Source: an uncultured Clostridia bacterium
Lineage (GTDB): Bacteria; Bacillota; Clostridia; Lachnospirales; CAG-274
Length of the DNA: 64,000 bases
Reading direction: 5' to 3'
Assembly: GCA_947591605.1 (NCBI GenBank)
Contig: CANQDF010000001.1
Span: forward strand, 62,001-126,000
Numbering within the stretch: position 1 is the stretch's first letter; each line of letters starts with the position of its first letter. The notes beneath the pieces are model-generated. The model made no database searches, was not told the DNA's origin, and saw nothing but the letters and a program-made list of their open reading frames with translations. This document shows, piece by piece, positions 3,031-51,295 of the stretch. Made by a program: the position numbers and the translations under genes.

Positions 3031-3040
3031 ACGGCTGCGG

Positions 3041-3065
3041 CTCAAGGGAGAGGCTCTCCCTTGAG
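3041..3065 (+). terminator. Hairpin behind first LCP gene
   Basis: CTCAAGGGAGA and TCTCCCTTGAG form a perfect 11-bp stem with a 3-base loop, ten bases after the LCP stop codon. No T-run follows; the dispersed element copy A starts directly after it. Confidence 0.55.
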
Positions 3066-3250
3066 CACGCTTGCAGGAAATGCTTGCATTTCCTGCATTT
3101 TGTTTTCACAAGGAGCAAAGAGTTTGTGCCTCGCTGTCGCTCGACACGCACTCTTTTCCTCGGCGGAAGTGAATTCCGCCTGTGGATTTAAGCCTGACGG
3201 CGCTAAAGTTACCTTAAAGTGTTTGCAAGTTTAGATTCTTAAAATCGGTT
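3064..3250 (+). repeat. Dispersed structured element, copy A
   Basis: This stretch is homologous along its whole length to 45021-45258 (same orientation) and to 35691-35930 (reverse). It begins CACGCTTGCAGGAAATG, has the perfect hairpin GCAGGAAATG-cttg-CATTTCCTGC, then a TCGCTCGACAC block, CTCTTTTCCTCGG, a second hairpin GGCGGAA-gtgaa-TTCCGCC, GCCTGACGGCGCTAAAGTTACCTTAAAGTG, and a T-rich end. The second stem has different bases from copies D and E but remains paired. It lies in the 3' region of the first LCP gene and may be co-transcribed with it. Confidence 0.8.
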
Positions 3251-3280
3251 TTTTATCTGTTTTTAGTTTTGGAGGTTTAT

Positions 3281-15727: not shown

Positions 15728-15960
15728 TTTAACGGCTTGGAACGGGAGGAGTAACCGTAAGTCCTGCATCAGAGAAAGACGCTCGCAGGCTGAAAGGCGT
15801 CTTTGCAAAGGCAGCGGTGAAGGTAGCCCGGGAGCCGGCATACCGAACTGTCGGTAGGTATGTCCGTTTGCGCTGCGTTAAAGCGCTTAAGAGCCCGCTT
15901 TGCGGGAAATAAGGTGGTACCGCGGATACTTTCGCCCTTATAAAGGGGTGAGAGTATCTT
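15728..15960 (+). promoter_or_regulatory. T-box riboswitch, valine tRNA-responsive
   Basis: Leader RNA that senses uncharged tRNA-Val and controls valS by terminator/antiterminator choice. The 14-base T-box AAGGTGGTACCGCG lies at 15911-15924 and its centre pairs with the tRNA acceptor end. An AGAGA stretch (15772-15776) marks stem I. The probable specifier is GTA (Val) at 15823-15825 in GGTGAAGGTAGCC. The terminator is GATACT ... AGTATC (15925-15958) followed by T residues. valS starts at 16000. Confidence 0.92.
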
Positions 15961-21813: not shown

Positions 21814-22130
21814 AATAAACTTTTTTATAAAAGTCCCGTACTGACAAATATAAAAGTCCCGGACTGAAAAAAAACATTATTAAATCGAGTAACTCAAAGC
21901 GCCGCAGGCTGAAATCCGCAGGCGGAATTCACTTCCGCCGAGGAAAACAGCGAGTTTCAAGGTCTGCACCCGAAAAAAGCAATCGGGACGCCCGCAGGGC
22001 GGCTTTTGGTGTAACCAAAAGTGCTTTTCTCTATGGAGCCGCCGGAATGAGCTGTTTATACTTCTGTTTATTCTCGAAAAAGTTCCAAAGGGACTTTTTC
22101 GACAGTAATAAACTTTTTTTGTAAAAGTCC
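21814..22130. repeat. Gene-free region flanked by 23-bp direct repeats
   Basis: AATAAACTTTTTT-ATAAAAGTCC (21814-21836) and AATAAACTTTTTTT-GTAAAAGTCC (22107-22130) flank about 270 bases without a gene. Inside are tandem copies AAAAGTCCCGTACTGA / AAAAGTCCCGGACTGA (from 21828 and 21850), the partial dispersed element copy B, and a strong hairpin TCGAAAAAGTTCC-aaa-GGGACTTTTTCGA (22074-22102). It resembles an old insertion, but no transposase is seen. Confidence 0.5.
21897..21962 (-). repeat. Dispersed structured element, copy B (partial)
   Basis: AGCGCCGCAGGCTGAAATCCGCAGGCGG then TTCACTTCCGCCGAGGAAAA matches the central part of copies A, D and E, read on the - strand. It carries the GGCGGAA/TTCCGCC stem version seen in copy A. 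Confidence 0.7.
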
Positions 22131-22722: not shown

Positions 22723-22765
22723 ACTACCATAGGAAACAAGTTTTCCTATACAAATAAATAAATAT

Positions 22766-22846
22766 GTGAAAAAGGCAAACTTGCCGAAAGGCAAGGACGC
22801 AAAGCCTCAGGTCTAAGGCATTGGCTATGACAGCTGGGTTACCTAA
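22766..22846 (+). promoter_or_regulatory. Cyclic di-GMP-I (GEMM) riboswitch, no gene downstream
   Basis: The aptamer carries the conserved blocks of class I c-di-GMP riboswitches: AAGGCAAAC, the CGAAAG tetraloop hairpin (TTGCC-gaaa-GGCAA), GGACGCAAAGCCTC, GGTCTAAGGCATTGGC, a GACAGC bulge and the 3' GGGTTACC. Its 3' GGGTTAC (22836-22842) can pair with GTAACCC (22858-22864), which overlaps the 5' arm of the terminator at 22860, so an OFF-type switch is likely: aptamer folded, terminator forms. No + strand gene follows before the convergent truA gene. Confidence 0.9.
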
Positions 22847-30218: not shown

Positions 30219-30298
30219 TGTCAAAAAACCTAAAATTAGATCCAAAAAATGATTTTTAAATAATTTAAACCTGCAAAAACACTTCAAGGTAATTAAAT
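30218..30298 (-). repeat. Dispersed structured element, copy C (3' part only)
   Basis: TGTCAAAAAACCTAAAATTA, then GATCCAAAAAATGATTTTTA and AAGGTAATTAA match the end of copies D and E. It overlaps the last bases of merR: the merR TAA (30295-30293) lies in the element's GGTAATTTAA stretch. Confidence 0.75.
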
Positions 30299-35652: not shown

Positions 35653-35689
35653 AAAAAGGTTCTTTGTCAAAAATATTTGAAAATGAGCC
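35653..35689 (-). terminator. Outer terminator hairpin beside element copy D
   Basis: On the - strand AAGGCTCATTTTCAAA pairs with TTTGACAAAGAACCTT and is followed by TTTTT. It is a diverged copy of the hairpin at 35931-35970 on the other side of the element. Confidence 0.65.
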
Positions 35690-35690
35690 T

Positions 35691-35930
35691 TCAGATTATC
35701 AAAAAACTTAAAATTAGATTCAAAAAATGATTTTTAAAGAGTTTAAACTTGCAAAAGCACTTAAAGGTAATTTAAGCGCCGCAGGCTAAAATCCGCAGGA
35801 CGAGCTTTGCCCGTCCGAGGAAAAGAGGGAGTGTCGAGCGATAGCGAGGCGCGAATCTCTTTGTACTCTGTGAAAAAAATGCAGGAAATGCAAGCATTTC
35901 CTGCAAGCGTGTCGATTTTTTCGACACGCT
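35691..35930 (-). repeat. Dispersed structured element, copy D (full, 240 bp)
   Basis: Read on the - strand it matches 45021-45258 nearly throughout: TCGACACG hairpin end, GCAGGAAATG/CATTTCCTGC hairpin (35881-35904), the CGCTCGACACT block, GGACG/CGTCC hairpin, GCCTGCGGCGCTTAAATTACC and the TTTTTTGAxAATCTGA end. It lies directly behind the GGDEF gene at 35994, in sense orientation, between two copies of that gene's terminator hairpin. Confidence 0.88.
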
Positions 35931-35970
35931 AAAGGCTCCTTGTCAAATGTTTTTGACAAAGAGCCTTTTT
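35931..35970 (-). terminator. Inner terminator hairpin behind GGDEF gene
   Basis: AAAGGCTCTTTGTCAAA and TTTGACAAGGAGCCTTT (- strand) form the stem, 24 bases after the GGDEF stop. No T-run follows on the - strand; the element starts directly there. Confidence 0.65.
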
Positions 35971-44980: not shown

Positions 44981-45015
44981 GGCTGCCGCAAAATGGAAAA
45001 TCATTTTACGGCAGC
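44981..45015 (+). terminator. Inner terminator hairpin behind Gfo/Idh/MocA gene
   Basis: GCTGCCGCAAAATG pairs with CATTTTACGGCAGC (one mismatch). It is not followed by a T-run; the element starts there. An almost identical hairpin lies at 45258. Confidence 0.75.
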
Positions 45016-45020
45016 TTAGG

Positions 45021-45258
45021 CGTGTCGACTTTTCGACACGCTTGCAGGAAATGCTTGCATTTCCTGCATTTTTTTCACAGAGTACAAAGAGATTCGCGCC
45101 TCGCTATCGCTCGACACTCCCTCTTTTCCTCGGACGGGCAAAGCTCGTCCTGCGGATTTTAGCCTGCGGCGCTTAAATTACCTTTAAGTGCTTTTGCAAG
45201 TTTAAACTCTTTAAAAATCATTTTTTGAATCTAATTTTAAGTTTTTTGACAATCTGAG
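45021..45258 (+). repeat. Dispersed structured element, copy E (full)
   Basis: Full copy in the orientation taken as sense. CGTGTCGA-ctt-TCGACACG hairpin, GCAGGAAATG-cttg-CATTTCCTGC hairpin (45043-45066), CGCTATCGCTCGACAC block, GGACGGGC-aaa-GCTCGTCC hairpin (stable with a G-T pair only on this strand), AGCCTGCGGCGCTTAAATTA and the TTTTTTGACAATCTGA end. It is sandwiched between two copies of the hairpin terminator of the preceding gene. Confidence 0.9.
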
Positions 45259-45298
45259 GCTGCCGCAAAATGAAAAATCATTTTACGGCAGTTTTTTT
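45258..45298 (+). terminator. Outer terminator with T-run
   Basis: GGCTGCCGCAAAATG-aaaaat-CATTTTACGGCAG followed by seven T: the functional terminator of the + strand unit, and a near copy of 44981-45015. Confidence 0.85.
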
Positions 45299-50656: not shown

Positions 50657-50983
50657 GCAAGTCAATCGGACAGTCGCACACGCAAGTGTGAGGAAAGTCC
50701 GTGCTCCGCAGAGCAGGATGCCGGATAACGTCCGGTGGAGGCGACTCTAAGGATAGTGCAACAGAAATAAACCGCCCGTTTTACGGGTAAGGGTGGAAAG
50801 GCAGTGTAAAAGACTACCGGTTTCCCGGCGACGGGAGATGCTCTGTAAACCCCATCCGGAGCAAGGCGGGAAGGCAATACGGGGCTGCTCGCTCCGCCTC
50901 AAAGCGCCGCTTGAGATTGTCGGTGACGATAATACCAGATAGATGACTGTCTAAACAGAACACGGCTTACGGATTGGCTTGCA
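50657..50983 (+). ncRNA. rnpB: RNase P RNA, bacterial type A
   Basis: Catalytic RNA maturing tRNA 5' ends. P1 is GCAAGTCAATC (50657-50667) with GATTGGCTTGC near 50972-50982. The universal blocks are there: GAGGAAAGTCCG (CR I, near 50690), ACAGAAATAAACCGCC, GGTAAGGGTGGAAAGG, the P-loop pairing region, and GAACACGGCTTAC at the 3' end (CR V). GCATTTTTTT after P1 serves as the terminator. Confidence 0.96.
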
Positions 50984-51295
50984 TTTTTTTATTCGGTTTG
51001 TTATACCGAGGTGGCGTGCCGAACAAAAATTTATATAATCTTCCTTTTTGTGTTATCTTTATAAAAGATTTTCAAAAAATCAGCGCAAATTATGCGAAAT
51101 TATGATAAAAATTTGCCGCTCTGTCACCTTGCACAATTTTTTTTAAAAAATTTATTAATGTTTGTGAACACTGTTTTTACTGCATTTGCTATAATATGAC
51201 TTGTGAAAAACCCCAAATATTTTCACATACAGTTTATACATCCCTCAAATATGTAAAATAAACTGTAAACCCCATAAAAAATACCTTCTCTTTAG

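Follow-up and report, generated by a model that had tools for sequence, protein, structure and literature searches.

The window, a stretch of 64,000 nucleotides from an uncultured Clostridia bacterium, contains two complete copies of a short, 240-bp element, designated E and D, together with a degenerate copy (A), a copy of another subtype (B) and a remnant. At E, the layout is as originally predicted: a gene stop is followed by a hairpin without a T-run, the element, a second copy of the same hairpin and a T-run. The first hairpin copy, GGCTGCCGC...GCGGCAG-type, is 95% identical to the second over 38 bp. The element itself carries no open reading frame of at least 90 aa and consists of a series of hairpins, P1 to P5, between terminal inverted repeats. 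The features of the window are as follows.

44981..45016, + strand: target terminator hairpin of E, first copy, after the gene stop and without a T-run (38-bp match, 95%)
about 45018..45256, + strand: element E, complete copy, with ends GCGTGTCGA... and ...TTTTTTGACAATCTG
45020..45041, + strand: P1 of E, the left terminal inverted repeat as a hairpin, GCGTGTCGA-CTTT-TCGACACGC; this architecture is common to other families
45043..45075, + strand: P2 of E, hairpin TGCAGGAAATGCTTGCATTTCCTGCA plus T-run, terminator-like
45086..45126, + strand: P3 domain of E, outer helix AAAGAG/CTCTTT
45124..45175, + strand: conserved core of E (CCTC - P4 - TGCGGAT - P5), 80.5 bits with covariance model R1
45132..45150, + strand: P4 of E, covarying hairpin GGACGGGC-AAA-GCTCGTCC
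45162..45170, + strand: P5 of E, small hairpin GCC-TGC-GGC, whose second pair covaries (U-A/C-G)
45242..45256, + strand: right terminal inverted repeat of E, TTTTTTGACAATCTG, resembling the end of an IS1182 element
45257..45291, + strand: second target-hairpin copy of E, followed by a T-run at 45292-45298
35931..35967, - strand: hairpin of D, first copy, on the 5′ side when D is read in its own sense (locus L003)
35692..35930, - strand: element D, 99% identical to E over 230 bp
35655..35691, - strand: hairpin of D, second copy, followed by a T-run (locus L003)
about 3067..3275, + strand: element A, a degenerate copy without the left P1 arm and the right end; a hairpin at 3040-3066 precedes it
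21880..22105, - strand: element B, of another subtype; its P3 motif is CATTCC...CCTTGAAACTCG and an internal hairpin is expanded
30219..30297, - strand: partial copy or remnant, an element right end adjoining a terminator hairpin

The 99% identity bears out the earlier description of D and E as near-identical, and their hairpins are indeed unrelated to each other, each being doubled around its own element. Duplication of the target terminator, proposed for both insertions, is thus seen at both. Element A does follow a hairpin, as had been noted, but it has lost both ends and there is no second hairpin copy. The window further contains three Rfam matches above cut-off: an RNase P RNA (50658-50985), a T-box leader (15729-15942) and a c-di-GMP-I riboswitch (22764-22846).

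Copy number, insertion sites and target duplication

Searches of the 2.37-Mb genome yielded 40 scored long DNA matches of element E and, with covariance model R1, 89 matches of the core. E and D are hereby confirmed as members of a dispersed family of small non-coding mobile elements, with about 90 copies in their own genome. The core is present in 33 of the 48 genomes of the bacterial family, representing 10 of its 11 genera, whereas the R1 search detected it in none of the eight genomes of genus g6. At the level of the order, 44 of 246 sampled genomes, spanning four families, contain the core; the named records among them all come from uncultured Clostridia or comparable metagenome bins. Evolution has kept the folded core in several families of gut bacteria. 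At the sites of the own genome read with their flanks, the ends of the copies are constant, starting with CAG-nn-TGTC and finishing with GACA-nn-CTG, and the hairpin varies from site to site. Foreign copies with duplicated flanks are 184-411 bp long.

Nearly all own-genome copies with genes on both sides (33 of 36) adjoin the 3′ end of a gene, and 17 of these 33 are flanked by convergent gene pairs. Insertion shows no strand bias, with nine sense and seven antisense copies at tandem sites, and the outer flank is T-rich on one side in 16 of 18 hairpin pairs. Accordingly, the targets are mainly intrinsic terminators, used without strand preference. Two congeneric genomes provide candidate empty sites: in both G001 and G002, the intergenic region beside the gene orthologous to the one downstream of E has one hairpin and lacks the element, and in G002 the orthologue of the D gene is likewise closed by just one terminator hairpin, with no element. 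It should be noted that, at the approximately 75% identity of G001/G002, the hairpins at the empty sites are not comparable base for base, so that this comparison is supportive rather than base-exact.

The genome-wide search suggested with the original prediction found the flanking hairpin duplicated at 18 of the 24 own-genome copies that have both ends, each above the 99th percentile of mis-paired flanks. The median flank-repeat score of these 24 copies was 21.5, compared with 8.0 (sd 1.9) for mis-paired flanks; chance is excluded as the source of the repeats. The 54 foreign copies with both ends come from other species, other genera and other families, and 44 of them are flanked by duplications above the 99th percentile of the mis-paired control. 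Long duplications mostly fold as hairpins (p<=0.05 against shuffles): 18 of 19 in the own genome, where the median folding z was -5.7, and 40 of 44 in foreign genomes, 58 of 63 in total. The 56 hairpin duplications measure 18-37 bp, with a median of 26. Within this set, which was chosen as hairpins and whose geometry therefore describes that set, with repeats delimited by direct-repeat alignment, the hairpin spans 94% of the duplication, the lengths of the two correlate at r=0.93, and in 87.5% of cases the repeat overshoots the stem by no more than 2 nt at each end. Duplications of constant length would be expected from a transposase that cuts at a fixed stagger; here the length tracks the size of the hairpin, indicating that the target hairpin sets it. 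Some own-genome copies lack any flank repeat (L009), and two others (L013, L016) are bordered by just 9-bp direct repeats that do not form hairpins, which suggests a fallback target mode.

A probable IS1182-family partner and a model of insertion

IS1182-family transposase genes are flanked by the same ends as the mini-elements, the sequence CAGnnTGTC(A/G)AAAAA being common to the MITEs and to the IS1182 elements of loci L080/L085, L083, L075 and L079. The most complete case, L080/L085, comes from another genus, in which an entire 1511-bp IS1182 element is flanked by ACCGCCGCATTATAAATGCGGCGGT and encodes a transposase of 475 aa that scores 417 bits against NF033551 (NCBIfam; cut-off 270). The order at this locus is hairpin, intact IS, same hairpin, MITE of the E/D family, and the same hairpin for a third time; the autonomous element and the MITE thus share both the kind of target and its duplication. 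In the own genome, an open IS1182 frame, preceded by hairpin AAAGGGAGTGTTGCTTTGCAACACTCCCTT and the end CAGACTGTCAAAAAA, continues up to the contig end (L083), and a decayed copy has the same end, CAGACTGTCAAAAAAGCTC (L075); a copy of IS1182 both complete and intact was not found there, since one runs off its contig and the others are decayed. IS1182 matches occur in 13 of the 48 genomes of the family, and related genomes contain NF033551 matches above the cut-off. Automatic end-finding over all IS1182 loci returned one clean end pair with a duplication (L085), the remaining loci, mostly one-ended, fragmentary or without duplication (e.g. L107), being left out of the count. The conserved core is absent from the IS1182 elements examined and was found only in adjacent MITEs.

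Short and non-coding, with terminal repeats in common with an autonomous element whose transposase family is present, the E/D family has, judging from these sequence features, very probably been moved in trans as a MITE by an IS1182-family DDE transposase. Two explanations that dispense with such a transposase are both highly improbable. Recombination or replication slippage could have simply duplicated gene 3′ ends, as two copies of the local hairpin at each site might suggest, but one and the same element, ends included, lies between unrelated hairpins at dozens of sites in several families, and IS1182 elements display these ends and the duplication as well; we rejected this explanation on account of the identical ends at unrelated hairpins. 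Group IIC introns insert at intrinsic terminators, and elements resembling them or the TnpA-REP systems sit at or near terminators or palindromes, a preference that the E/D family shares. Group IIC introns, however, are retroelements with a catalytic intron RNA that do not duplicate whole target hairpins, or indeed their targets at all, whereas the E/D family bears no intron signature, has no Rfam intron match, and has as its partner a DDE transposase of the IS1182 family, not a reverse transcriptase or an HUH enzyme; the ends in common with IS1182 contradict an element of this kind. That the E/D family is a MITE which depends on IS1182 and duplicates whole target hairpins is well supported.

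In DDE transposition, the duplicated stretch is the segment between the two joining points. The transposase would probably attach the element by its two 3′ ends to the target hairpin, at the 5′ foot on each strand, the target presumably being a terminator extruded as a cruciform or otherwise. Gap filling would then copy the hairpin, resulting in exactly one duplicated hairpin. Since the T-run stays with the outer copy, a terminator is retained at the end of the gene and the insertion should be almost neutral; this would explain the high copy number and suggests how some 90 copies at gene ends do little harm.

Targeting of hairpins by the IS1182 family is already known. In staphylococci, IS1272 and TnSha1, members of this family, target hairpins, often transcription terminators, without sequence specificity (PMC4923244, PMC5678879). 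Furi et al. found both in terminator hairpins, with deletion and without duplication (PMC4923244), and Wan et al. argue for an attack of IS1272 on the 3′ feet, with loss of the hairpin, having also drawn, as a hypothetical pathway b for stem-loop targets, an attack on the 5′ feet (PMC5678879). The putative mobiliser of the mini-elements belongs to the same transposase family and uses hairpin targets; however, where IS1272 deletes or replaces the stem-loop, the E/D family duplicates it whole at most complete sites, as in pathway b. The E/D family is the duplicating counterpart of IS1272. With the joints at the hairpin feet and the duplication equal to the hairpin, the geometry is the mirror image of that of IS1272, and the 5′-foot and 3′-foot models become directly testable; the many natural insertion sites bear on how an IS1182-family transposase picks and cuts its target.

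ISfinder, as quoted in PMC7335449, gives direct repeats of 2 to 60 bp for IS1182, and Siguier et al., as cited in PMC4923244, name palindromes as the target of some members. These quoted remarks are general notes, whereas here the duplication length is set by the hairpin at many independent sites and the element is a MITE. The BOX, RUP, SPRITE, ERIC and QMITE elements are similarly short, non-coding, multicopy, intergenic, foldable and moved in trans (PMC10969869), but hairpin-length target duplication was not found described in the passages of that source on such elements, and the E/D family further differs from them in an interior that is conserved, with covariation, over several families. 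A literature search for an IS1182 MITE or whole-terminator duplication returned nothing beyond the IS1272 papers. What is new is the regularity of whole-hairpin duplication, a MITE lineage that carries it out, and a deeply conserved, covarying interior that is not in Rfam.

The conserved interior fold

Compensatory changes exceed the controls in three alignments. In A1 (28 sequences), 96.1% of cells are paired and 38 are doubly changed, against 9.8 after shuffling, and slid structures score far lower. A2 comprises 15 sequences of a single subtype; double changes affect 13 of its 37 pairs and amount to 52 cells, compared with 15.7 in the shuffled control. A3 comprises 11 sequences from two families that have the P3 internal motif of other subtypes, GUUCCAKCGG/CCUUGAAAC, and contains 33 doubly changed cells versus 8.9. 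The covariation check proposed earlier has thus returned compensatory changes far above both shuffled and slid controls; the previously noticed change from GGACG/CGTCC to GGCGGAA/TTCCGCC is real and belongs to a wider series of paired changes. Both signs on which the original prediction was staked, duplicated flanking hairpins and covariation, are therefore found genome-wide. Together, the alignments show for the P2-P5 interior a predicted fold that is conserved and kept by compensatory change across families. Rfam contains no match to the element at curated or relaxed thresholds, nor a credible weak match. The MITE accordingly harbours an undescribed fold conserved across several bacterial families, although MITE interiors are otherwise expected to decay. 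With less certainty, we infer that the interior is kept because it functions as RNA, or else as a single strand in folded form, with a part in mobility or in the 3′-end behaviour of host mRNAs.

Of the two possibilities originally put forward, a structured RNA or a mobile element, mobility stands, given the duplicated hairpins at most complete sites, the IS1182 ends and the location of 33 out of 36 copies next to the 3′ end of a gene, and so does selection on structure; the step to RNA fared less well. Among the variable pairs, G-U outnumbers A-C mismatches by 17:7 and 13:3, counts from related sequences that carry no significance test, and this excess leans towards the sense strand acting as RNA. 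Yet both strands of E fold significantly (z of -5.1 and -5.3), so that the covariation could instead reflect DNA hairpins or hairpin-templated mutation.

It is conceivable, though rather doubtful, that the element is a structured non-coding RNA or a 3′-UTR regulatory element under selection that would act on mRNA 3′ ends or in trans, with mobility as its mode of spread. Covariation in P3, P4 and P5 over two or more families, the conserved internal-loop motif, the G-U excess and the proximity of most copies to gene 3′ ends fit this picture; insertion without strand bias, the lack of a common gene function at the four window sites, the missing Rfam match and the many partial copies do not. A DNA-level signal is a serious possibility, if short of an even chance: single-stranded hairpins could bind the transposase or aid excision, pairing being kept thereby or by hairpin-templated mutation. 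The transposase clade recognises hairpin targets, P1 at the element end is itself a hairpin, and both strands fold equally well, all consistent with such a role. On the other hand, the G-U/A-C asymmetry and the conserved unpaired bases of the internal loop are features more often seen in RNA, and the core is absent from the autonomous elements examined. Starting from the IS1182-dependent MITE, one may tentatively go further and envisage a non-coding transposon lineage of long standing, with an interior that is a genuine structured RNA of a new class, needed for mobility or for harmless insertion into terminators, and with a transposase that reads the shape of a hairpin and duplicates exactly one.

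Several copies depart from the common architecture. At L025, L026, L034 and L111, a hairpin of the type GGGGTGTTG..CAACACCCC replaces the P1 end hairpin; the same type recurs elsewhere in the own genome as a target. The P2 hairpin at three own-genome loci (L023, L033, L040) has another small repeat, TTTACGAGGAACAAACGAGGGTACCTCGTTTGCTTGCGGGGTACCCCCGCAAGTTCCTCTG, nested within it, and at L005 the MITE lies inside the palindrome of this repeat. At locus L046 (1252-1580), an 88-bp P2-P3 unit of the element is repeated 3.7 times in tandem, and one copy with the left end and core is located on a viral contig (L273, 784-948, reverse). Finally, the copies at L124, L171, L174, L175 and L154 start at P2 right after a stop codon and lack the left terminal repeat; they are products of deletion or else a subtype that is mobilised in another way.
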